From positions 43,375-107,374 of the forward strand of contig CACPDC010000004.1 of NCBI GenBank assembly GCA_902632595.1: a stretch of DNA of 64,000 nt, given 5' to 3'. A program made the translations under genes and the position numbers. The DNA is from an uncultured SAR116 cluster alpha proteobacterium (GTDB lineage: Bacteria; Pseudomonadota; Alphaproteobacteria; Puniceispirillales; Puniceispirillaceae). Shown one piece after another: positions 2,507-15,540 of the stretch (positions within the stretch are counted from its first letter, which is position 1; each line of letters opens with the position of its first letter). The notes below the pieces were generated by a model. That model searched no databases and had not been told where the DNA came from. It saw nothing but the letters and a program-made list of their open reading frames with translations.

Positions 2507-3184
2507 TCAAAAATCTAACAATGAATAGTGAGCCGAAGGTGCAACACCTGTTAATTGATCACTTAACAAATCCCTAAAATTGGGGCGTGACTTAATCTTC
2601 ATATACCATGACGCTGCCGAAGGATATTTGTCCCATTGAACATCGCCAAAATAATCTAATATAGAGATTTGAGCTGCAGCAGAAAAATCAGCAAGCGATA
2701 GCTGAGCACCAACAAGACAGCTATTTTGCTCCGTTAACCAATTAAGATAGCCAAGGTGCACTTGTGCATTCGAAAGTCCTGTTCGGATGTTAAATGAGGA
2801 AGCATCTGTGCCACTCTCAAAACGCTTTATGACCCTTTCGTGTAATAAAGGCAAACCCACTTCATAATAAAATTTATCATCAAACCAGTCTAGCAAACGT
2901 CTTATCTCAGCACGTTGAACGCTTGAACCTGGAAGCAACCTAGAATCAGGCCTCGTCTCTTCAATCCATTCACTAATTGCTCTCGAACCAGATATTACAA
3001 TTTCGTCGTTGTATTGAAAAACGGGTAATGAGCCCGCAGGATTAATAGCCAAAAATTCTTCATCTCGTTGCCACGGAAGATGATGGACTAACTCAAAATC
3101 ATATTGGTATTCCGCAAGCTGAAGACGGATAAACCTGCTTGCCGGTGATAATGGAAAATGATGTAATTGAGGCCTAAAGTTCAT
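2507..3184 (-). CDS. Glutathione S-transferase family protein
   Basis: 225 residues with an N-terminal thioredoxin-like domain (SPASRFIRLQLAEYQYD, then NPAGSLPVFQ, where the cis-proline loop VPVL/LPVF is expected, then SGSRAISEWIEE, the glutathione-contacting Ser-Arg pair). An all-helical domain follows, with the N-capping motif SLADFSAAAQISILDYFG. This is the layout of cytosolic GSTs from proteobacteria. It probably conjugates or reduces small electrophiles; the exact substrate class cannot be told. It lies downstream of the GNAT gene on the same strand, about 40 bases apart, so the two may be co-transcribed. Confidence 0.85.
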   Translation of the reverse strand: MNFRPQLHHFPLSPASRFIRLQLAEYQYDFELVHHLPWQRDEEFLAINPAGSLPVFQYNDEIVISGSRAISEWIEETRPDSRLLPGSSVQRAEIRRLLDWFDDKFYYEVGLPLLHERVIKRFESGTDASSFNIRTGLSNAQVHLGYLNWLTEQNSCLVGAQLSLADFSAAAQISILDYFGDVQWDKYPSAASWYMKIKSRPNFRDLLSDQLTGVAPSAHYSLLDF

Positions 3185-3226
3185 GTGATAAATCTGTCTG
3201 ATTTAATTTCAAATAAAGATATATTT

Positions 3227-3745
3227 TCAACAAATATCTGGCAAGGTAGTTAATGGTTTGTTACTGACTTTTTCTAAATACAGATCTCGCAAATTAATAT
3301 ATTGCAGTCTTTGCCTCTCGATAGAACCTGGCCAAAGCAAATTTTCTGGAACAGGTTTGAACCCAAATTTTGGGAAAAAATAAGGTTCTCCTGAGACAAG
3401 GCAAAAATTCCAACCACTATTTTTGATCATCTTTAGAGAAGAGGTTATTAATAGTGAACCAATACCTTTTCCTTTTAAGTGATCTCTCACTACCAAAGGA
3501 CCCAAGAGAAGTGAGTTATATTCAGCAATCTTTATTGGCCAATATTGTAAGCTTGCTACTATTTCTTCATGATGCAAGTGAAAAGTATCTAAAACTATCA
3601 ATCCAAGTTTTTCTATGGGTTTTGATTTTCGAAATTTCCAGACCGACCGGTCTAAATAGTCATGTCCAAATTCCTCTATTATCATTTGATGCACAGATTG
3701 TTTGTCTTTGGGGAGATAAGACCTTAATTTGTAACGATCTGACAT
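3227..3745 (-). CDS. GNAT family N-acetyltransferase
   Basis: 172 residues with the GNAT acetyl-CoA binding motif RDHLKGKGIGSLLITSSL (Q/R-x-x-G-x-G/A) near the middle. It is followed by the SGEPYFFPKFGFKPV segment typical of the YhbS-like subgroup of predicted acetyltransferases. The substrate is unknown; members of this subgroup acetylate small amines or protein N-termini. It is the first gene of a likely two-gene unit with the downstream GST. Confidence 0.82.
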   Translation of the reverse strand: MSDRYKLRSYLPKDKQSVHQMIIEEFGHDYLDRSVWKFRKSKPIEKLGLIVLDTFHLHHEEIVASLQYWPIKIAEYNSLLLGPLVVRDHLKGKGIGSLLITSSLKMIKNSGWNFCLVSGEPYFFPKFGFKPVPENLLWPGSIERQRLQYINLRDLYLEKVSNKPLTTLPDIC

Positions 3746-4060
3746 AATTATTGTAACTTTTTTATTCCTAGGTTAGTTCTCATGATTAAAGACAAATTGA
3801 AACTTTACCTCTAACAAAATTTTCTAATCTTGCTATTTTTTCGTGCAATGAATTTCTATTGAACTGAAAAATCGCATTAAAAGAAAAATCTTAATATAAA
3901 TGATTTAAATTATTTTATTGAAACTATAGAAAGATAATGGGTTATGTTCAAGAATTTCAGTAAAAGCAGGACTTTAATTGAAGTTTATGTTTAAAAAAGC
4001 CTCAGTATAATTAACTCAGGACCAAAAAGGCCAAAAATTTACTTATGATGGGTATTATTG
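3746..4060. other. Divergent AT-rich spacer between the GNAT gene and uppP
   Basis: About 315 bases without a convincing ORF. It must hold promoters for both flanking genes, which diverge. The sequence is very AT-rich, so many -10-like hexamers occur by chance and I do not choose one. No hairpin with a T-run or riboswitch-like fold was recognised. Confidence 0.5.
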
Positions 4061-4909
4061 ATGGACATTAAATTAGATGAATTTTTACAAATTAGCATAA
4101 TAGCCATAATTCAAGGTTTTACTGAATTTTTACCTATTTCATCTTCTGGCCATTTGATTTTGATATCTGAAATTGGTGATTTTAGTAAAAAAGGTATTGA
4201 AATCGAAGTTGCTGCACACATTGGTTCTTTGTTTGCTGTGATTTTTTACTTCAGAAGGATAGTTTTTAGACTATCCAAAACAATATTTTCTAACTTTGCC
4301 AGTTTGTTAGGAAATAATTTCAGAGATATTGGAGACAAGAAAAAATACGAAGATGCAAATCTCGTTAGGTGCTTAATCGTTGGATGTCTTCCCATATTAG
4401 TAATTGGATTTTTAATTGTACAAACAAATATTTCAATACTTCGTCTATTGATAACGATTGGAATTGGTAATTTATTCTTTGCATTGATTTTATTTCACGC
4501 AGATAGGATTGGTAGCTCCTCCAAAACTCTTTCTGGCATAAACGTTAAAGATGCCTTAATTATTGGTTTTTTTCAGATTTTTGCATTAATTCCTGGTTCT
4601 TCGCGAAGTGGTGTCACAATATCCATGGCAAGATACCTAGGTTATGACAGAACAAGCGCAACTGAGTATTCTTTACTCTCTGGTATACCTGTGATAACCG
4701 CAGCTGGGGTTTTACAAATTATTAAAATTGTTTTATCAGATGTAACTTATAACATAGCGCCAATTATACTTGTTTGCGTTCTTTCGTTTGTTGTAGCCTT
4801 AAGTTCAATACGCTTTTTATTATTGTGGGTTGAAAAAACCGATTTCAAGGTTTTCGTAATATATCGGTTAATTTTGGGGATATTTCTAATAGGCTTGGCC
4901 ATATTATAA
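4061..4909 (+). CDS. uppP: Undecaprenyl-diphosphate phosphatase (UppP/BacA family)
   Basis: An integral membrane protein of about 282 residues with seven or eight hydrophobic segments. Both family signatures are present: GFTEFLPISSSGHL near the N-terminus (about residues 20-33), with the catalytic glutamate and serines, and PGSSRSGVTISMARYLG (about residues 178-194), with the catalytic arginine. UppP dephosphorylates undecaprenyl diphosphate so the lipid carrier can be reused for peptidoglycan and O-antigen synthesis. The track starts at a TTG one codon upstream; I prefer the ATG at 4061. The gene converges on the diflavin reductase with about 60 bases between them. Confidence 0.93.
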   Translation: MDIKLDEFLQISIIAIIQGFTEFLPISSSGHLILISEIGDFSKKGIEIEVAAHIGSLFAVIFYFRRIVFRLSKTIFSNFASLLGNNFRDIGDKKKYEDANLVRCLIVGCLPILVIGFLIVQTNISILRLLITIGIGNLFFALILFHADRIGSSSKTLSGINVKDALIIGFFQIFALIPGSSRSGVTISMARYLGYDRTSATEYSLLSGIPVITAAGVLQIIKIVLSDVTYNIAPIILVCVLSFVVALSSIRFLLLWVEKTDFKVFVIYRLILGIFLIGLAIL

Positions 4910-4971
4910 TTGGCTGATTTTTCACACTAATTATTTAAATATTCAATGATATTTTCATCACACTAGCTGAA

Positions 4972-6726
4972 TTAATAAACGTCCCGTAAATACCTTTTCT
5001 CTTTTTTTAGCAAATTTATATAATCGGTTGTCTGATCATCTGTAAAGCTACCTTGATGCTTTATAACCTCAAAAAGTGCTCTATCAACATCCTTAGCCAT
5101 TTTAGAGGCGTCTCCGCACACGTAGAAATGTCCGCCCTCTTCCAAACACTTAAAAAGTGAATAACTATTTTCCAGCATTCTATTTTGGACATAAATCTTT
5201 TCCTTCTGGTCTCTAGAGAATGCTAAGTCAAGACGTGTTAAAAGACCGGTGTTACTCATTTGGCCAAGTTCTTGCTCATAAAGGAAGTCGTATTTTCTAT
5301 GTTGATCGCCAAAGAACAGCCAATTCATTCCCTTCGCGCCACGCTCTTCTCTTTCCTGTAAAAAAGCTCTAAAGGGAGCAATTCCTGTTCCTGGACCAAC
5401 CATAACCATAGGCACACTATCATCTTTAGGCACTCGGAAATTTTTATTTGGCAATAGGAAAACCCCATTGGCTGTTTCACCAGAGTTCTGATCAGCAAGA
5501 AAGGTAGAGGCAACACCATTATGTATTCTATCGTCATACGTCCATCTCACTGCCGCTACGGTTAGATGGATCTCTTCTGGGAAGGATTTGAAGCTAGATG
5601 AAATAGAATAAGCTCTGTGTTGTAACGGTCTGAGAAGTTTAATAAATTGTTCAGGTGAAAAATGAAAATCCTTTAATAACTTTAATAAGTCTAAGGTATC
5701 CAGTCCCCAAAGGAATGTGTCTAGCGTCTCTTTGTTTGCAACAGCGGAACTAAGACCAGTGTTTGACGCATGTCTCTCTACCTCATAAATCAAGTCCTTA
5801 GAGGGTGTCATTATTTCATATTTTGTGCTCAAAAGACCTGACAAGCTTTCATCTGTACCTTCCAGTGAATAGTCTTGATTTACTCCTAAAATTTTTATGA
5901 TTTCTTCAACAAGATAAGATGAATTGACCGGCATAATACCTAGTGAGTCACCAGCTTCATACGTGATCCCGCTGTTGGCTATATTTACACCAATATGTCT
6001 GATTTCTTTCGCCGATCCCGGGGCAGATAAAAGCCGATTTTCCTTTAAATAAGTTTGATATGGATTTTTTCTGTTCCAACTAGGTGGTGCCTCATCAATG
6101 TTTTCTTTTCCATTCGAGGAAGAATTCATTTTAGAAGTTTCATTTAAAGAGGTTCCTATATCTGGAATGGCTAAATCCAACCAATTAGCAGCAGGCTCTT
6201 CAAAATCTACATCGCAATCTATCCTACTACTAGTTCTCATAGCGCCTAATTGTTCAAGCCTTGTATCAATTAATTTTCCAGCTTGGCAAAATTCATCGTA
6301 ACTAGTATCACCCAATGCCAAAACACCGAAAGAAAGCCCCTCCAATCTAGGTGCCGACTCTGATACTAAGGAATCCCAAAATATTCCGGCATTATCGGGC
6401 ATTTCCCCTTCGCCATAAGTTGACACGATAATAATAGCATTTTCAACATTTGCTAAATATTCCATATCGATAGAATCTAGTTCACGTACGTTTGCCGAAT
6501 ATCCTCTCGTCTTTGCTAAAGTAGCCGCATCGTTCGCAAGTCCCTCAGCATTTCCGGTTTGCGTTCCGAATAAGATTTCCAAAGTCTTTAAATTGTTAGC
6601 GTTATGTACGCTTTCACTGCTAGAATTGCTCCAATCGCTGGACTTAAGCCCAGCGACAAAACCATCTAACCAAGCTCTCTGGTTTTCGTTGAACGGGGCA
6701 TCAGTGGGTATATTTAGAGATTTCAT
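4972..6726 (-). CDS. Diflavin reductase (CysJ-like sulfite reductase flavoprotein)
   Basis: A three-domain NADPH-FAD-FMN reductase. The N-terminal flavodoxin domain shows LFGTQTGNAEGLA, STYGEGEMPD and LGDTSYDEFC. The FAD-binding ferredoxin-reductase-like domain has RAYSISSS. The NADPH domain has GPGTGIAPFRAFLQERE and FFGDQHRKYDF, and the protein ends in the CysJ-like KRYLRDVY. It moves hydride from NADPH through FAD to FMN and on to a one-electron acceptor. The known CysJ partner is the CysI hemoprotein, but no cysI is in the window. Instead the gene overlaps the 3' end of gltB. The ORF track starts at 6792; I prefer the ATG at 6726 because MKSLNIPTDAPF leads directly into the NENQRAWLDGFVAGL segment seen in relatives. 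This leaves a 26-base overlap. It may serve GltB; see findings. Confidence 0.85.
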   Translation of the reverse strand: MKSLNIPTDAPFNENQRAWLDGFVAGLKSSDWSNSSSESVHNANNLKTLEILFGTQTGNAEGLANDAATLAKTRGYSANVRELDSIDMEYLANVENAIIIVSTYGEGEMPDNAGIFWDSLVSESAPRLEGLSFGVLALGDTSYDEFCQAGKLIDTRLEQLGAMRTSSRIDCDVDFEEPAANWLDLAIPDIGTSLNETSKMNSSSNGKENIDEAPPSWNRKNPYQTYLKENRLLSAPGSAKEIRHIGVNIANSGITYEAGDSLGIMPVNSSYLVEEIIKILGVNQDYSLEGTDESLSGLLSTKYEIMTPSKDLIYEVERHASNTGLSSAVANKETLDTFLWGLDTLDLLKLLKDFHFSPEQFIKLLRPLQHRAYSISSSFKSFPEEIHLTVAAVRWTYDDRIHNGVASTFLADQNSGETANGVFLLPNKNFRVPKDDSVPMVMVGPGTGIAPFRAFLQEREERGAKGMNWLFFGDQHRKYDFLYEQELGQMSNTGLLTRLDLAFSRDQKEKIYVQNRMLENSYSLFKCLEEGGHFYVCGDASKMAKDVDRALFEVIKHQGSFTDDQTTDYINLLKKEKRYLRDVY

Positions 6727-9700
6727 TACTTCTGTCCATAAAAACTGTCTGGCTAAGTTCTGCCAAAGTTGACTTGGCAAATAATTCATCAAAGCTTGGT
6801 ATAGAACCTAACGCATTTACATTTTTTTGATTTTGATAGATAATCCAAGAATACGTCGCTGGACTTTCCATGCTAATAACATTTCTCAATGCCAAAGCTT
6901 GTTTAAAATCTGTTAATCTTTTATTCGCCACCAGAATAGCAATTTCTTCGTCTGTGTAATCTGCTAACGCCTCTTTTGCATACTTAGACAACTCTGTCAT
7001 AAGACTAAAATCTTCTGTCATTATAAGATTTTTGGTTAGCTGATCACTGATATTTCCATTCCAAATATTTTTTGATTTTTTTAATATAATTTTCTGAGCC
7101 ATATCCAAAACTGTGTAGGAATTTAACAGCTCTGCCATGGATTTTTTACTTTCTTTATTTTCAGAAGGAATAGCACCACCATTAACTGGGGAATTGAGTT
7201 TCCATGCAGATTTGATCTTTTTTACCTGATGATTAGCAAGGGCAATGGCTAATTCCTCTGTTATCTCTTTTCTCGATTTTGAGGACAGTATCTCCTCATA
7301 ATCTTGATACTGCAGGAGAGCTTTTGGCATTACCCACCATATTTTTTCTTTAATTTTGTCCCAATCTTGAATTATTTTTTTCGCTTTAGATGATTTAGTT
7401 GCTAAATAATGCCATTCAAGCATTTGTTTTACAGCATGTTCATGCACTGCCTCTGAAGTCTCTCCTTGACCAATTTTACCTAAAATTACAGAGTCGTGAC
7501 TAACAAATTGCTCAAATATGTTTTCTGGATCATATTGGTAAGCAAAACCACCCGACATACCGTTACCGAAACCCTTGGAAAATCCTCCAATATTCAGAAT
7601 TGCGCCGTTGGTCATATACTCCGCGCAAAACTCACCAACCCCTTCAACAACCGCGGTAGCACCTGAGTTTCGTACTGCAAACCTGTCACCAGCTTGCCCC
7701 TCAATAAAAGTTTTTCCACCAGATGCACCAAATAAGGTGAAGTTTCCAACGAGAACGTTATCTCCATAGTGCTTACCGCCACCTGCGGGCGATTTTACGA
7801 TAATTTTTCCGCCACACGCTCCTTTGCCTACACCGTCATTGCATGTTCCCGTGTGTTCAAAAACCATACCATCATTACAAAAAGCTCCAAAGCTTTGGCC
7901 GGCAGAACCCTGTGTTGCTATTTTTACGCTCTCATAATCTAAAAAACAACGTCCACGATTATCGGTTACAATGCTCCCAGATTTCATTTTTTTCCCGTAG
8001 TTTAGTATACGTTCTATGTCGATTGATAATTGTCCGCCAACAGATTTATTTCGATTATTGAGCGGAGTGTTCGGCTTCAATATAATTTCGGTTTCGTCAG
8101 AACGAAGAAAATTCTCGACTTGACCAAGCAAAAAATCATCAACCGAATAATCGCGTGGCATATATTTAGGTTTTTTTACTTTTTCTGCTTCAACTCTAGT
8201 TAACATCTCTCTAAGGTTTAAATGACCTATCGAAGCTGGATGATCTAAAAGATGCAAAAGGTCAGACCTACCTCTGGCTTCTTCTAAGTTCTTAAAACCA
8301 AGCATAGCTAGAATCTCCCTTACCTCGTGAGCGATATTAAGAAGATACTGTGCCAAAGCTCTTGGGTCTCCGCTAAAGGTTTCCGCGTTTGTTGTTAAAC
8401 CTGCCGGACACTTAATATTACAATTCTTTGCCATGACACATTTAAGCATCATGAGCGCTGTTGTCCCAAATTCAAAACTATCCGCGCCCAATAGAGATGC
8501 CTTAATTATATCTAATCCGGTTTGCATGGCGCCGGAACTTCGCAGAACAACCTTCTCGCGAAGCCCATTATGGCATAAAGCTTGGTGAACTTCCGCTATA
8601 CCGATTTCCGCTGCTCTTCCAGTATATTTAAGAGATGTGACGGCAGCGGCCCCAGTTCCTCCCGTATTACCTGCAACATTAATTACATCAGCTCCAGCTT
8701 TAGCAACGCCCACTGCGATGGTTCCTATGCCCTCGGAACTTACCAACTTTACTATAACTCTAACACGAGCGGCCTTCGCGTCATGAATCAATTGGGCTAA
8801 GTCTTCTATCGAATAAGTATCATGATGAGGGGGAGGAGATATTAGCTCCACTCCTGGCGTGCCTCCTCTCGCAGCAGCGATTTCTACTGTTACTTTTGCA
8901 GCCGGTAATTGCCCACCTTCTCCCGGTTTTGCTCCCTGCCCAATCTTTATTTCAATTTCCTCTAGTTTAGGGTCTGCTAAATAACCAGCCCAAACGCCAA
9001 ACCTGCCTGAGGCAAACTGCTTAATCCTACTAGCACGAATTGTTCCATAACGGCTGATGTGTTCCCCACCTTCACCAGAGTTTGACATTCCGCCTACCAT
9101 ATTTGTGCCATGAGCAACAGCTTCGTGAGCAGATGCTACAAGGGCCCCATGAGACATTGCCCCTGACGCAATTTTTTTCGTTATTTCTGAAGCAGGTTGA
9201 ACCATATCAATCTCAATAGATGATGGTGCTCCACGAAGTCTTTCCAAATAATCTTTAGCGAATCCAGCAGCTGTAATATTTAATGAACGACTAGAAACAA
9301 AGTGACCCTTAATATCTTCATTAAAACGGTCAATCAGAGTTTGTGCTAGTATATCCAACCTTCCTAAGTCATAAGCCAAAGGACCTGTTAAATTTAGGTT
9401 AAAATTATCTTCAGATACTTTAACACAGGTCAAACCCCGTATGACAAAATCGTTATTACCCGCTCGATTAAAAAGCATCATTTCGCGCTTAATGTCTTCG
9501 TATGTAGTCATGTAAGTGATATCAGCTGGTAGTGATAGAATGTCCCGCAAAGCAGCAGGTCTGTTCATTCTTTCTTCAAAAATATCAAGTGAAAACTTTC
9601 TATATGCGGAGGTAATTTCAAAGTTATCAATCACGGATTCATCGAGCTCTTCAAAACTAGTATTAATATATCCATTTTCGTCTATGTCGAAAGCATCTTT

Positions 9701-12220
9701 CATCTGATTGAGGGTCATAACACTGAACGGGTTTACCTCACCATCCAGGATATTATTTTGTTTATCAGAAAATTTAATTTCTTCTTCCGTTAAATCTACG
9801 AAGCCTCGAACTGCAGCTGTACCGAAAGAATGACCGGCACCCTCAGACCGCTCTTTAAATAATCCAAGAATAGGTATGTCATTCGATGTTTGTATTTTCT
9901 TCGAATATGAGTGCCAATCCGCGGCTGATTGCGAAATAGTCCGAAATCGTACTCCTCCCACAGGTGTTTTCATATTTGGGAGCATGCGAGATAGAACTGG
10001 ATCATTAGTGTCAAGAAAATTTGGTTCAAAAAATTCTCCCCCTATGTAACTCTCTGCCGTACAAAGACCAACCTTCCCCATTGTTTTCATTAACGCTTTT
10101 TCACCAGCTTTCCGAAAACGCTGAAAAGCTTCAGTGGCCTTTTCATCTCCAAACAGCTCTTCCGCTCTCAATCTTACCGAGATCGGATAAACGGCTGAGG
10201 CCCCAAAGCCTAAAGCACATGCTATGTGATGTGATGACACAATTTGGCCGCTCTCTGCTATGACCGAAACCTTGAGTCTTAGTCCATCCGCGATTAACTT
10301 TTGATTAATTGCCGATATTACTAAAATTAGCGGGATTGATGCAAACTTTTTGGACATACCTCTGTCTGATAGTATGGCTATACCGCCCTTTTTTTGAGCA
10401 AAATTAGCGACGTTGTCGCAAACATTATCAATGGCTCTAAGTAAATTATCTTCGTTAATTTCAACATTATCAGGCTCTGGCTCATAGAGAATATCGAATG
10501 TCTCACACGGCGTAAATTTTTGCTCTCTTATTTTTAAAATTTCGGACATTTTTAGAATTGGACTATCCAAAATTATTTGCTTTGATCTAGATTTTCCATT
10601 ATGCGGCTTCTCACCCAAGGAAACTCTTAGAGTCATTCCATCGGCTTCTCTGATTGAATCTAATGGTGGGTTTGTCACTTGAGCAAACCTTTGACTAAAA
10701 TATTTTGCTATACCACCTTCAACATCCGAAAGCGCATTTATAGCGTTCCCGTAACCCATAGCCGACACTTTTTCGGAACCATAATTAAGCATGGGATCTA
10801 GCAAAAATTTAAAACTTTCTTGATTATGAGAATACGCAACGTATCTAGCATTCAACTCAAGATCACCATCATAAGATGAAGCTGCCACCTCTGGTTTAAC
10901 TTTTGGTTCAGGAAGACTTTTAATTTTAACGCTAAGGTTTGACAGTAGTTTCTGATAGTCCACTCGACTGGCTAAATTTTCTAGCGTTTCATTTGTTCGA
11001 AAGGTTTTCTTTAGACCATGGTCGTAGTAAATCATACCACCAGCCTCAACTCGACCACGACTTATTATTTTTTCGGGATCAAAATATATCTGTCCAGCTT
11101 CTGAAGTAACCGCAAGAAACTCAGCCGTCTCTACGCTTCTCAGCGGTCTCAAACCTAATCTATCTAATCTAGCACCTATTATTTTACCATCCCCAAATAT
11201 AAGTGCCGCTGGGCCATCATTCTTTTCCTCAAATAACGAAAAATATTCAAGCATAGCTTTTACTGGTTTACTGATGTTTTTGTCATTCTCCCAGGCAGGT
11301 GGCATCATTGACACAACAGCAGTAACTAAATCTAAATTTTCTTCAAAAACTCTTGAATTAAGTGTTTGATCCAATCTACAGGAGTCGGATTGGCCCTTGG
11401 GTCTTATAATTTGATTATTTCTTGCAAGTGCTATAGCTGTTTCAGACAAACGATTTTTTTTATCCGTATTCAACTCACCATTATGCGCCATCAATCTAAA
11501 AGGTTGCGCCATCGTGGGGTGTGGGTCAGTATTTGTGGAAAACCTCGTGTGAAAATAAAGAGAATGAACCTCGTGTTCTGGATCATTAAGATCATTGAAG
11601 TAAGGTATCAATTCCCAAGAGTTCAATCTTCCTTTTAACACTTGAAGCTTTGATGATAAAGATAATGGATAAAAACCCTCCAAACTCAGGTCTTGGTAAG
11701 CACGGGCTTCTATCATTAACATACTTTTGTAAATTTCAGAATCGAAATTATATGTTTCGTGTTTACGGTCTGGCCGCAAAAATATCCATTGTTTTATAGG
11801 AAGTTGATATTTTTGTGCTCTCTTATCAAGCTTTTCCATATTCACGGGAACTGTTCGCTGCAAAAGGACTTTAAAATCAAATTTATTGAATGTTTGTTTA
11901 ATAATTTCATTTGCACGATTATGCTGTTTTTTGTCATTTGGAAAGAAAAAATTACCAACCCCGAATTTTCCTGTTTTTAATTTGGAGTCTGTTAGTTTTG
12001 AAAAAAATGATTCAGAGAGGTCAATTGATACGCCTGCGCCATCACCTACACCCTCTGCCGACATACCTCCCCGATGAGGAACTGCGCATAACGCTTCATT
12101 ACCCAGTTTCAGAATTTCGTGAGTTTGATTACCGTCTTTCCTTGTAAGAAAACCAACACCGCAAGCGCTGTGCTCTAAATTGGGATCATACAAACCAAGG
12201 TGCCTTCTAAGTTTTTTCAA
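6701..12220 (-). CDS. gltB: Glutamate synthase large subunit (GltB-type) with C-terminal extension
   Basis: 1,839 residues, about 300 longer than usual GltB. Start is a TTG with GGGAG upstream. The class II glutamine amidotransferase domain opens with the nucleophile Cys20 (HSACGVGF) after a short propeptide. It is followed by the central domain and the FMN barrel (RFGVWAGY, KPGEGGQLP, AGNTGGTGAAAV). The 3Fe-4S cysteines lie in KCVMAKNCNIKCPAG, and the GxGxG beta-helix follows (GKGACGGKI, GGMSGGFAY region). About 190 residues beyond the usual end (from roughly KSRKEITEEL) match nothing I know. The enzyme makes two glutamates from glutamine plus 2-oxoglutarate. Normal bacterial partners are GltD (NADPH) or ferredoxin. 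No gltD is nearby; a diflavin reductase gene overlaps the 3' end instead. The cluster cysteine spacing (C-x5-C-x3-C) is one residue tighter than the usual C-x5-C-x4-C. Confidence 0.9.
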   Translation of the reverse strand: MKKLRRHLGLYDPNLEHSACGVGFLTRKDGNQTHEILKLGNEALCAVPHRGGMSAEGVGDGAGVSIDLSESFFSKLTDSKLKTGKFGVGNFFFPNDKKQHNRANEIIKQTFNKFDFKVLLQRTVPVNMEKLDKRAQKYQLPIKQWIFLRPDRKHETYNFDSEIYKSMLMIEARAYQDLSLEGFYPLSLSSKLQVLKGRLNSWELIPYFNDLNDPEHEVHSLYFHTRFSTNTDPHPTMAQPFRLMAHNGELNTDKKNRLSETAIALARNNQIIRPKGQSDSCRLDQTLNSRVFEENLDLVTAVVSMMPPAWENDKNISKPVKAMLEYFSLFEEKNDGPAALIFGDGKIIGARLDRLGLRPLRSVETAEFLAVTSEAGQIYFDPEKIISRGRVEAGGMIYYDHGLKKTFRTNETLENLASRVDYQKLLSNLSVKIKSLPEPKVKPEVAASSYDGDLELNARYVAYSHNQESFKFLLDPMLNYGSEKVSAMGYGNAINALSDVEGGIAKYFSQRFAQVTNPPLDSIREADGMTLRVSLGEKPHNGKSRSKQIILDSPILKMSEILKIREQKFTPCETFDILYEPEPDNVEINEDNLLRAIDNVCDNVANFAQKKGGIAILSDRGMSKKFASIPLILVISAINQKLIADGLRLKVSVIAESGQIVSSHHIACALGFGASAVYPISVRLRAEELFGDEKATEAFQRFRKAGEKALMKTMGKVGLCTAESYIGGEFFEPNFLDTNDPVLSRMLPNMKTPVGGVRFRTISQSAADWHSYSKKIQTSNDIPILGLFKERSEGAGHSFGTAAVRGFVDLTEEEIKFSDKQNNILDGEVNPFSVMTLNQMKDAFDIDENGYINTSFEELDESVIDNFEITSAYRKFSLDIFEERMNRPAALRDILSLPADITYMTTYEDIKREMMLFNRAGNNDFVIRGLTCVKVSEDNFNLNLTGPLAYDLGRLDILAQTLIDRFNEDIKGHFVSSRSLNITAAGFAKDYLERLRGAPSSIEIDMVQPASEITKKIASGAMSHGALVASAHEAVAHGTNMVGGMSNSGEGGEHISRYGTIRASRIKQFASGRFGVWAGYLADPKLEEIEIKIGQGAKPGEGGQLPAAKVTVEIAAARGGTPGVELISPPPHHDTYSIEDLAQLIHDAKAARVRVIVKLVSSEGIGTIAVGVAKAGADVINVAGNTGGTGAAAVTSLKYTGRAAEIGIAEVHQALCHNGLREKVVLRSSGAMQTGLDIIKASLLGADSFEFGTTALMMLKCVMAKNCNIKCPAGLTTNAETFSGDPRALAQYLLNIAHEVREILAMLGFKNLEEARGRSDLLHLLDHPASIGHLNLREMLTRVEAEKVKKPKYMPRDYSVDDFLLGQVENFLRSDETEIILKPNTPLNNRNKSVGGQLSIDIERILNYGKKMKSGSIVTDNRGRCFLDYESVKIATQGSAGQSFGAFCNDGMVFEHTGTCNDGVGKGACGGKIIVKSPAGGGKHYGDNVLVGNFTLFGASGGKTFIEGQAGDRFAVRNSGATAVVEGVGEFCAEYMTNGAILNIGGFSKGFGNGMSGGFAYQYDPENIFEQFVSHDSVILGKIGQGETSEAVHEHAVKQMLEWHYLATKSSKAKKIIQDWDKIKEKIWWVMPKALLQYQDYEEILSSKSRKEITEELAIALANHQVKKIKSAWKLNSPVNGGAIPSENKESKKSMAELLNSYTVLDMAQKIILKKSKNIWNGNISDQLTKNLIMTEDFSLMTELSKYAKEALADYTDEEIAILVANKRLTDFKQALALRNVISMESPATYSWIIYQNQKNVNALGSIPSFDELFAKSTLAELSQTVFMDRSNEISKYTH

Positions 12221-12578
12221 AGAATATAACTCCCAAAGTAAATAACAAACATCTGAGTAATTGAAGAAAAAAATGGACGATTTTTGTCTGCTTTAATTTC
12301 AATTAATACAGATATAATTCAGTCTCAAATAGAGCAATTATGATTGAACCCAAAATCTTTCACCAGCAGATTTATTTCATTCAATTCCAAACAGCATGTT
12401 ACAAAAAACGTGCCACTTAGGTCAGTATGTATTACCTTTTTTTATAAATTTCAAGTTTAAAAATTAAAAATTTTTTAAAAATATATAGAAAGGTGAATTA
12501 ATATGGAGTTATTGACACACAACTTACTGATAAAACGAGATTTGTTATATTAAGTATCTTCCTAAGGCAGTTTTTAAC
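12221..12578. other. Spacer upstream of gltB
   Basis: About 358 bases between the gltB start and the stop of the NDUFA9-like gene, both on the minus strand. It should contain the gltB promoter. It is AT-rich with long T and A runs near 12430-12490. A 16-codon plus-strand ORF (around 12503) has a fair ribosome binding site but no downstream plus-strand gene; I do not call it. No riboswitch or clear operator was recognised. Confidence 0.45.
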
Positions 12579-13526
12579 TCATGACCGCGCAAATTTTCCA
12601 CCTTGTCGGTAACAATTTAAATAAATTGGGACATGCGCTTCTATTGGTTGAGGGGTGATACTTAAAGATGTAATATTTGCCATATTATCACTAACCACGT
12701 TATTCGTATTCAACATACGGAGCTGGTCAATGGTAATTGGAGGATTTGGAAGGATAGACATTAAACCTGCAGGAATTTTCATTGCAACTAGTGGCACAGG
12801 AAGCAACATTCTTTTTTTATCAATAACGTTGAGTATGTAAGTCAAAAGCTCTTCAAAAGTGTAGATGGTAGGTCCTCCTAGCTCATAAATCTGTCCATCT
12901 GTTTGCTTATTGGCCAGACAATATAAAATCGCATCAGCAACGTCACCCACAAAGACAGGCTGAAACTTAGTTTTTCCTCCACCTAAAAGAGGTAATGCCG
13001 GCACCACCATAGCCATTTTGGCAAATCTATCAAAAAATCCATCACCTGGCCCAAACACTATTGATGGTCTTAAAATAGTGCTGTTAGGAGAAGAACGCAG
13101 CAAGTTTCTTTCACCCTCGGCTTTAGTTTTTTGATATATGCTATTCGAATTTAAGTCAGCCCCAATAGCAGATATGTGAACTATCTTTTTGGTATTTAAC
13201 CTTTTGGCTATACAGGAAATTCTTTGTGGCAATTCAGCCTGTGCATTTTCAAAATTTTGTTTTCCTGACGGATGAAAAATTCCAATTAAATTTACAACGT
13301 AATCCGCGGAGAACATAACTCTTTCTAAATCAGAGTCTTGCAATGCGTCTCCCGACATTATTGTTATCTGACCAACATCCCCCATTGGTTTAAGGTTTTT
13401 GGCACGTACAGCATTTCTGGTCAAAACTGTTATGCGAGTGCCTGCACGGGCTAATTTTTCAACAAGCGCCCGTCCGATAAAACCAGAGCCTCCAATTAAA
13501 CAAACGGTTCTATTTTTCAATTGCAT
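12579..13526 (-). CDS. NDUFA9-like NAD(P)-binding protein (complex I-associated, atypical SDR)
   Basis: About 315 residues. The Rossmann motif VCLIGGSGFIGRALVEKLA is at the N-terminus, followed by TRNAVRAKNL, MSGDALQDSDL and VVNLIGIF, the pattern of the atypical short-chain dehydrogenases that include the mitochondrial complex I subunit NDUFA9. Alphaproteobacteria commonly carry such a gene. Suggested roles are complex I assembly or quinone-related redox chemistry, but bacterial function is not settled. I start at the internal ATG (13526), which has GGAA upstream, instead of the 13541 ATG. The gene is transcribed away from the copper chaperone gene. Confidence 0.8.
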   Translation of the reverse strand: MQLKNRTVCLIGGSGFIGRALVEKLARAGTRITVLTRNAVRAKNLKPMGDVGQITIMSGDALQDSDLERVMFSADYVVNLIGIFHPSGKQNFENAQAELPQRISCIAKRLNTKKIVHISAIGADLNSNSIYQKTKAEGERNLLRSSPNSTILRPSIVFGPGDGFFDRFAKMAMVVPALPLLGGGKTKFQPVFVGDVADAILYCLANKQTDGQIYELGGPTIYTFEELLTYILNVIDKKRMLLPVPLVAMKIPAGLMSILPNPPITIDQLRMLNTNNVVSDNMANITSLSITPQPIEAHVPIYLNCYRQGGKFARS

Positions 13527-13897
13527 GAATATTTCCATCAAAATAATTTTACAGATTATATAACAATATATCGTCCAGCATATAAGGTCATATAAGATAT
13601 AACCAGATAAATTCTAGATTTCTGCAACTACTTTTTTTTCGTACCCTGATCTTTAGAATATCTTCTCATTTTAAAGGGATTTTAGAAATAATATGTAAAA
13701 TTATTTTATTGAGCTCATTATTAATTTAAGGTGCCAATCAATAAAGTTGCGCCTAACCTTGAATTAGATGATTTTTAATTTTAAGAATAAAAAACAAATA
13801 AAGTGTCAAAATTGTTTTACAAAGAAAAATTTAAAAGGTTCAATACATCGAATTACATATTTTTTTACCACGCAAATCTCTAGGATAGGTATTTCCA
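13527..13897. other. Divergent AT-rich spacer (NDUFA9-like / PCu(A)C genes)
   Basis: About 370 bases, including the possible longer start of the NDUFA9-like gene. It must hold promoters for both divergent genes. An overlapping 67-codon plus-strand ORF in the track (13768-13971) lacks family resemblance and clashes with the chaperone gene. Nothing else is recognisable. Confidence 0.4.
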
Positions 13898-14380
13898 TTG
13901 CGCACTCTTTTTATATTTTTTTTGGCTTTATTCATTTCACTTATGCAATCCGCAAATGCCCAAAAGGTTGAGTTTGGTGAACTAGTTATTTCCAATGCTT
14001 GGATTAGAAATACTCCTGCTAACCATCATTTGACCGCTGGTTATCTTAAGATTGAAAATGTCGGAGATATGGATGATAAATTAATTGACGTATCCAGCTC
14101 AATTGCTGAAGAAGTTGAGATTCACCAGATAATAATGGAAAATGAAATAATAAAAATGCGTCCTTTAAAAGACGGATTGACAATCCGCGCTGGAGACATT
14201 GTTCACCTAAAACCAGGTAGCGTACACCTTATGTTTCTGAGACTAAAGAAACTAATTTTACCTACCGAACTTTACGAAATAAACTTAACATTTCTTAACG
14301 CTGGTAAATTGACAGTCAAGGCTTTAGTTAAATCTGGCCCAATTAGCGCGATGCAGCATCAAAATGAGCATAAGCATTAA
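13898..14380 (+). CDS. Periplasmic copper chaperone PCu(A)C
   Basis: 160 residues starting at TTG, with AGGATAGG placed well upstream as ribosome binding site. A Sec signal peptide (MRTLFIFFLALFISLMQSANA, cleavage after ANA) leads to a DUF461 cupredoxin-like domain. The copper ligands appear as the HQIIM / KMRPL / HLM set: a histidine, a methionine ten residues later, then a C-terminal His-x-Met. The C-terminus is His-rich (HQNEHKH). PCu(A)C delivers Cu(I) to the CuA or CuB site of cytochrome c oxidase in the periplasm. There is no adjacent sco or cox gene. Confidence 0.88.
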   Translation: MRTLFIFFLALFISLMQSANAQKVEFGELVISNAWIRNTPANHHLTAGYLKIENVGDMDDKLIDVSSSIAEEVEIHQIIMENEIIKMRPLKDGLTIRAGDIVHLKPGSVHLMFLRLKKLILPTELYEINLTFLNAGKLTVKALVKSGPISAMQHQNEHKH

Positions 14381-14541
14381 TTTATAAGGAGCTTTTAAGC
14401 CCTCTTACCCAAGGTTTATTAAAAATATACTTATGCAAAATTTAGTAAAGTTTTTAGGGGTTCGCGAGAGTGATTTTATCTGGTATCAAACGGGTATACT
14501 TAAGACAAATAATTTTCGATAATTTTATAAAGGGGCGCAAT

Positions 14542-15540
14542 ATGACCATGAGGGTAGCAATTAATGGTTTTGGAAGGATTGGAAGAAATATATTAAGAGC
14601 TCATATTGAAAAGCCTCGTGAAAATATTGAAGTGGTTGCTGTTAATACTGTCCCATCTATTGTCGATTCCGCTTATCTTTTGGAGTTTGATTCTGTTCAT
14701 GGCAGATTGCCAATACCCGTCCAAACTGAAGATAATATGATGTATGTTGGAAATAATAAAATACAATTTTTAAGTGAACGTAATCCAGATGATCTTGATT
14801 GGGGTTCGGTCGGCGTGGATGTAGTAATGGAATGTACAGGTATTTTTACCGATGCAAAAAAAGCAGCAATACATATAAGTAGAGGTGCTAAAAAAGTGCT
14901 TGTTTCGGCTCCATCTACTGGAGCCGATTTAACTGTAGTATTCGGAGTGAATCAGAACCTTATTTCATCTGAGCAAAAAATAATTTCAAATGCTTCGTGT
15001 ACGACGAATTGTCTTGCTCCGATAGCCTACATTCTTAGTAAGTCATGTGGAATTAAACAAGGTTTCATGACAACAATTCATAGCTACACAGGTGACCAAC
15101 GTATACTGGACACAGAACATAATGATTTGTACCGCTCTCGTGCTGCCGCATTGAACATGATTCCGACCACTACAGGAGCAGCCAAGGCAGTTGGGCTTGT
15201 ATTACCAGAGTTGAACGGTAAACTTGATGGAGTAGCTATACGTGTTCCCACACCCAATGTATCCGCCGTAGATTTCGTTTTCGAGCCATCGAGACAAATA
15301 TCTGCAGAGGAAATCAACCAATTAATTGTTAATGCCGCTAAGGAAGAGTTGAAAGGAGTTTTAGATTTTACAGACCGAGAATTAGTATCAACAGATTTCA
15401 ATCATCATCCCGCATCTTCGATAGTACATCTTGATCAAACCAAGGTTTTGAAAGACGGTATGACTCGTATTTTTAGCTGGTATGATAACGAATGGGGTTT
15501 CTCAAATAGAATGCTAGACACTGTATCCTGTATGATTTAA
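14542..15540 (+). CDS. gap: Glyceraldehyde-3-phosphate dehydrogenase, type I
   Basis: 332 residues from the ATG at 14542, which follows AAAGGGGC. The track's upstream 24 codons are not GAPDH-like. The N-terminal NAD-binding motif is AINGFGRIGRN. The catalytic cysteine is in NASCTTNCL, the phosphate site is in YTGDQRILDTEH, and the usual TTTGAAKAVG and WYDNEWGFSNRM motifs are present. It interconverts glyceraldehyde-3-phosphate and 1,3-bisphosphoglycerate. No other glycolytic or Calvin-cycle gene is adjacent. A strong hairpin terminator follows the stop. Confidence 0.92.
   Translation: MTMRVAINGFGRIGRNILRAHIEKPRENIEVVAVNTVPSIVDSAYLLEFDSVHGRLPIPVQTEDNMMYVGNNKIQFLSERNPDDLDWGSVGVDVVMECTGIFTDAKKAAIHISRGAKKVLVSAPSTGADLTVVFGVNQNLISSEQKIISNASCTTNCLAPIAYILSKSCGIKQGFMTTIHSYTGDQRILDTEHNDLYRSRAAALNMIPTTTGAAKAVGLVLPELNGKLDGVAIRVPTPNVSAVDFVFEPSRQISAEEINQLIVNAAKEELKGVLDFTDRELVSTDFNHHPASSIVHLDQTKVLKDGMTRIFSWYDNEWGFSNRMLDTVSCMI

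Follow-up and report, generated by a model that had tools for sequence, protein, structure and literature searches.

The window, that is, the whole stretch of 64,000 nucleotides analyzed here, derives from a SAR116-type genome assembly that is 73% complete, and it contains a gene for a long form of the glutamate synthase (GOGAT) large subunit, designated gltB-L, followed by a gene for a diflavin reductase (Table 1). The open reading frames and the Pfam domains bear out the preliminary description of a gltB overlapping a complete diflavin reductase gene on the same strand; the overlap is now set at 26 nt, counted from the ATG at 6726 (MKSLNIPTDAPF...), which is the start kept in the relatives, and it would reach 92 nt only if the TTG at 6792 were used. 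The neighbours of the pair are housekeeping genes, coding for a glycosyltransferase, a hydrolase, a GST, an acetyltransferase, BacA, an epimerase, PCu(A)C, GAPDH and a peroxidase, and, in agreement with the same description, none of these neighbours encodes GltD, CysI or a ferredoxin. In the public annotation the two proteins appear as 'glutamate synthase-related protein' and 'sulfite reductase subunit alpha'.

Table 1. Genes and protein features at the gltB-L/diflavin locus, in coordinates of the window.
Feature	Position	Strand	Basis
gltB-L, glutamate synthase large subunit, long form, 1839 aa	6701..12220	(-)	ORF call, Pfam, PRK11750
Diflavin reductase, 584 aa from conserved ATG	4972..6726	(-)	ORF call, Pfam, start kept in relatives
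Diflavin reductase ORF, 606 aa from TTG	4972..6792	(-)	ORF call
Cys20, counterpart of catalytic Cys1 of mature GltB	12161..12163	(-)	Alignment with Azospirillum GltB
Family-specific inserts, start of synthase domain, residues ~813-995	9236..9784	(-)	Alignment
[3Fe-4S] loop CVMAKNCNIKC	8408..8440	(-)	Alignment; family signature
Family-specific C-terminal extension, residues ~1640-1839 (~200 aa)	6704..7303	(-)	Alignment; AlphaFold
Flavodoxin-like FMN domain	6205..6576	(-)	PF00258, E=6e-29
FAD- and NADPH-binding domains, SRDQKEKIYVQ motif	5083..6075	(-)	PF00667, PF00175; alignment to CysJ 6efv
bacA, undecaprenyl-diphosphate phosphatase	4058..4909	(+)	Pfam; congener comparison
NAD-dependent epimerase-like gene, left flank of replaced block	12579..13541	(-)	Pfam; 72-76% identity in congeners
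GST-like and acetyltransferase-like genes, right flank of replaced block	2507..3745	(-)	Congener synteny

The Pfam domains of GltB-L (GATase_2, Glu_syn_central, Glu_synthase and GXGXG) follow the canonical order, and the protein passes the PRK11750 model with 1050 bits (cut-off 1047). The position of the catalytic cysteine is invariant in the alignment, in 19/19 long and 9/9 canonical GltBs, and the NGE oxyanion motif and Met479 are retained relative to the Azospirillum and SAR116 canonical GltBs; Met479 of canonical GltB has been proposed to lie between the cluster and FMN (PMC8097209), and its surroundings change from G-S-M-G in the canonical proteins to S-A-M-G in GltB-L. The three cluster cysteines are also retained, in a Cys-x5-Cys-x3-Cys spacing instead of the canonical Cys-x5-Cys-x4-Cys, and the loop signature CVMAKNCN[IVL][KR]CPA recurs in 86 of 87 long GltBs. 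Lysines before, inside and after this loop (K,K,K) occur in 72 of 76 long GltBs, at positions where canonical GltBs carry mostly G,R,T.

Two segments of the synthase domain, residues ~813-869 and ~898-995, are mostly without counterpart in canonical GltB, and for this insert a single-chain AlphaFold model gives a confident alpha/beta fold, with no sequence match in Pfam or the PDB and no significant fold match in the PDB. The C-terminal extension is predicted by AlphaFold to form a helical bundle; comparison with Pfam and PDB sequences gave nothing past the end of the GltB beta-helix, and the best matches in a fold search with the C-terminal half were all GOGATs and FMN-barrel enzymes. A phage origin of the extension was also considered and rejected, with no match found in a phage search. 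The ferredoxin loop is absent from the GltB-L alignment, in which Synechocystis residues ~915-933 have no counterpart and the insert sits elsewhere. As judged from these alignments, GltB-L belongs to a separate family of long GltBs, marked by an insert, a C-terminal domain and a cluster-loop signature of their own, a result that goes beyond the preliminary description.

The reductase comprises Flavodoxin_1, FAD_binding_1 and NAD_binding_1 domains, the first of them strongly acidic, and its nearest solved relative is CysJ of NADPH-sulfite reductase (6EFV), with which it shares the FMN/FAD/NADPH order, an N-terminal segment before the flavodoxin domain and the C-terminal RDVY (RYLRDVY in the alignment). 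It differs from CysJ in having a GOGAT as partner and no CysI, in its identity of ~35-39% to CysI-linked CysJ and in belonging to a separate clade. The protein fails the CysJ equivalog cut-offs (TIGR01931, 594 of 668 bits; PRK10953, 461 of 838) and passes that of the broader PRK06214 model, 'sulfite reductase subunit alpha' (444 of 432).

The distribution of the pair was surveyed in ~85,000 species, one genome each, with a seed alignment made from the GltB-L C-terminal extension alone, the reductase never being used. The survey yielded 79 loci in Alpha-, Beta- and Gammaproteobacteria, Mycobacteriales, Verrucomicrobiales (Verrucomicrobia) and Planctomycetaceae (Planctomycetes), and a diflavin gene lies directly downstream on the same strand in all of them (79/79), a pairing that far exceeds chance. 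Five matches with identities down to 48% came from a further set of 399 Pseudomonadota genomes and all five are paired, although one of them (G802) agrees with Methylobacillus genome G460 in its coordinates and has probably been counted already; the conserved gltB-diflavin order to which the preliminary description had looked is therefore present in both samples. The GltB and diflavin tree distances are strongly correlated (Mantel r=0.915; no value above 0.24 in 2000 shuffles), and, since the Mantel test ignores shared ancestry, this value shows co-inheritance rather than adaptation; eight pairs of strongly supported branches conflict between the two trees.

The host genome contains one GltB match in total, and in its 73% complete assembly, searched one protein family at a time, neither a Fer4_20/GltD nor a siroheme reductase (NIR_SIR) domain was found. 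The same pair is present in the congener G002 (90% complete), with 95% and 91% identity and with no other GOGAT, GltD or NIR_SIR detected in that assembly, and a further locus, L088, is near-identical to that of the window. In the three other congeners examined here (G004, G006 and G009), a canonical gltD-gltB occupies the same locus between shared epimerase, acetyltransferase, GST, hydrolase and glycosyltransferase genes, indicating that gltDB was exchanged in place within one genus. The loss of gltD from its known syntenic position guards against assembly incompleteness as the cause of its absence, and a gltD elsewhere, which the preliminary description had named as evidence against its own reading, was found neither in the host nor in G002. 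The bacA gene was probably exchanged together with the GOGAT genes, because its identity to the congener bacA at the same locus (39-43%) is below that of the flanking genes (48-80%). In the SAR116 family f4, a ~375-aa flavodoxin-less FAD/NADPH reductase and a LysR gene are located just upstream of canonical gltBD (L059 4694-6759, L060 and L061); this reductase, present in 9/9 f4 genomes searched, falls inside the GOGAT-diflavin clade, the LysR is 65% identical to the LysR beside the complete pair in G057, and both genes are probably left over from a GltB-L/diflavin system that was displaced.

Comparison of the canonical GltB and GltD content in 39 genomes with the pair identified eight without canonical GltB, namely L089 (a SAR116 congener), L099, L111, L157, L164, two Methylobacillus isolates and Pantoea sp. 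A4, and none of these eight has a GltD match better than E~1e-9. The long GltB is likewise the only GOGAT large subunit in G634, G819 and G659 (each rated 100% complete; G659 in a single contig), as established by the GltB search alone. No GDH domain was detected in the L099 genome (99% complete as G164) or the L157 genome, so that in these two, which have no canonical GOGAT either, the pair is the only recognized route from ammonia to glutamate; the host of the window carries a GDH-family gene. The other examined genomes with the pair also have a canonical GOGAT, and where canonical GltBD is kept, as in many genomes, the pair is an alternative enzyme; in L191 (G534, 4174-15000), gltB-gltD and gltB-L-diflavin are arranged one after the other on the same strand. 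These data bear on the possibility that GltB-L, rather than being a glutamate synthase, is a reductive amidotransferase of related type with another 2-oxo acid as its substrate, a reading for which the distinct family with insert and extension and the altered residues beside Met479 and in the cluster loop may be adduced; it is nevertheless improbable, given that GltB-L is the sole GOGAT in several genomes, two of them lacking GDH, that the glutaminase, FMN/synthase and cluster residues are kept, and that the exact position of gltDB is occupied.

Even less probable is the alternative put forward in the preliminary description, by which the adjacency to gltB is accidental and the reductase acts as CysJ for a sulfite reductase (or, as also considered here, a nitrite reductase) encoded elsewhere. 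The solved structure closest to the reductase and its public annotation would agree with such a role, against which stand the invariable adjacency to gltB-L, the score below the TIGR01931 cut-off and the lack of any NIR_SIR protein in the host, congener and G057 genomes, all of them with the pair. The diflavin tree points in the same direction, since the GltB-linked set is separate from the CysI-, NirA- and nitrate-reductase-linked diflavins, although its base is not fully resolved and Mycobacterium second copies and two glutamine-synthetase-associated diflavins adjoin the GOGAT set; a linkage to cysI among relatives, which would have spoken for the accidental pairing, never occurs within the reductase's own clade, and the CysI-linked diflavins are placed outside. 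On plasmids, the nine diflavin records with at least 50% identity are all beside a long GltB and the remainder do not exceed 46%, those opened among the latter being CysJ with CysI, NirA-linked, fused to nitrate reductase or adjacent to glutamine-synthetase-like genes. Similarly remote is the chance that GltB-L is reduced in the cell by ferredoxin or flavodoxin, with the diflavin protein confined to re-reducing or repairing it. In favour of this, diflavin reductases can serve as reactivators, as in the case of methionine synthase reductase, and GltB-L without GltD resembles Fd-GOGAT, but the strict 1:1 adjacency and the co-evolution are better suited to a stoichiometric subunit, and the alignments contain no ferredoxin loop.

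The sequences show a pair that is invariably kept together across phyla, is co-inherited, has taken the place of gltDB at its locus and keeps the catalytic residues, and GltB-L and the diflavin reductase very probably constitute a two-subunit NADPH-dependent glutamate synthase of new architecture; the role of dedicated GltB partner that had been proposed for the reductase is supported by the genomic evidence on each point that the preliminary description had named. We infer that the two proteins would form a physical complex in which NADPH drives glutamate formation and the reductase docks on the cluster loop. Electrons would pass from NADPH to FAD and FMN in the diflavin subunit, and from there to the [3Fe-4S] cluster and FMN of GltB-L and on to 2-iminoglutarate, formed from 2-oxoglutarate and ammonia, the latter freed from glutamine and passed through the interior of GltB-L. 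In this scheme the diflavin protein would fill the role of GltD, and with GltD its FAD and its two [4Fe-4S] clusters are missing; the acidic flavodoxin domain of the reductase may dock on the basic cluster loop, aided by the insert, the C-terminal helical domain, or both, and the K,K,K loop and the acidity of this FMN domain fit such an arrangement at the cluster.

The electron donors described for GOGAT are GltD, ferredoxin, or the eukaryotic fused NADH form (PMC8097209), and no description of the gltB-L/diflavin pairing was found in the open-access PMC full text. With GltB-GltD (Azospirillum 6S6X, Bacillus 7MFM), the pair shares the four domains, Cys1, Met479, the FMN site, the three cluster cysteines and NADPH as the presumed donor; it departs from that enzyme in a small subunit of the flavodoxin-FAD-NADPH diflavin type, which has no iron-sulfur clusters, in the length of GltB-L (1839 aa vs ~1480-1520), in the C-x5-C-x3-C loop and in the insert and C-terminal domain. 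As in Fd-GOGAT (Synechocystis 1LLW/1OFD), there is no GltD and a one-electron carrier is expected to feed the [3Fe-4S] cluster directly, whereas the dedicated NADPH-reducible donor encoded next door, the insert, the C-terminal domain and the missing ferredoxin loop set GltB-L apart. A further parallel is given by the diflavin-fused nitrate reductase and the NirA-linked diflavins, where an assimilatory enzyme has likewise acquired a CysJ-type reductase as an NADPH donor of its own; the enzyme served there is a nitrate or nitrite/sulfite reductase, joined to the diflavin by fusion or by pairing, and these diflavins lie outside the GOGAT-diflavin clade.

A connection of the GltB-L/diflavin loci with iron, which the preliminary description did not include, emerges from the gene neighbourhoods. 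Neighbour clustering places a HemS/ChuX-domain gene near the pair in 33/83 loci, from Rhodobacterales, Rhizobiales, Mycobacteriales and Verrucomicrobiales, and a heme, siderophore or TonB/FecIR gene is near the pair in 41/83, compared with 2/15 controls (generic ABC ATPase matches only), both counts overstating the number of separate events because related loci are not independent. The HemS/ChuX-domain protein, of ~300 aa and adjoining the pair in, for instance, L091 (12450-13412), may belong to the module as its third member. Among 21 actinobacterial loci, 11 carry an IdeR-like box upstream of gltB-L (e.g. TTAGGCTAGGCTAAGCT), at a distance of 75-170 nt from the start, with 12 sites in 5,250 upstream positions vs 4 in 428,868 positions elsewhere in the same loci, and the motif emerged again when palindromes were sought de novo (13.6 bits, vs 8.0-8.3 for shuffles). 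In non-actinobacteria, the region before gltB-L shows no enrichment of Fur, Irr/ICE or related boxes, and de novo palindromes outside Mycobacteriales scored barely above shuffles, with no convincing motif. The window locus has neither an adjoining iron gene nor a recognizable iron box, and an iron role in its organism would therefore be an extrapolation.

Canonical GltBD, with one [3Fe-4S] and two [4Fe-4S] clusters (PMC8097209), is repressed under iron shortage in Caulobacter (PMC3751524), and the iron-sparing response of Bacillus takes in the iron-containing glutamate synthase (PMC9938188). By computation, canonical GltBD holds 11 Fe per protomer and the diflavin version is expected to hold 3. 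The frequent location of the pair beside iron- and heme-uptake genes and the replacement of GltD by a two-flavin reductase suggest an iron-saving enzyme, and the pair is probably an iron-sparing NADPH-GOGAT with 3 Fe instead of 11, whose expression is probably tied to iron shortage in many lineages. A wider reading, to which we give slightly better than even chances as a whole, is that of a widespread and so far unrecognized third GOGAT class, iron-sparing and induced by iron starvation, in which FMN would replace the two [4Fe-4S] clusters of GltD and induction would proceed via IdeR in Mycobacteriales and heme/siderophore clusters elsewhere; this class would assume the assimilation of ammonia when GltBD is shut down, and would be the sole GOGAT in lineages of the iron-poor ocean such as SAR116.

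GOGAT stands at the centre of nitrogen assimilation, and a donor subunit that carries flavins only would define a new class of it; if so, the annotation 'sulfite reductase subunit alpha' would need correction in many genomes, and an iron-rich hub enzyme would prove exchangeable for a form that needs about a quarter of the iron. The question of how glutamate is supplied while the iron-sparing response lowers GltBD becomes testable with this pair. In the Paracoccus (L171) and Paenarthrobacter (L177) plasmids, CysJ-like diflavins are located beside glutamine-synthetase-like and aldehyde dehydrogenase genes, with a P450 nearby in L177, and these gene sets may represent another private partner of this reductase type.
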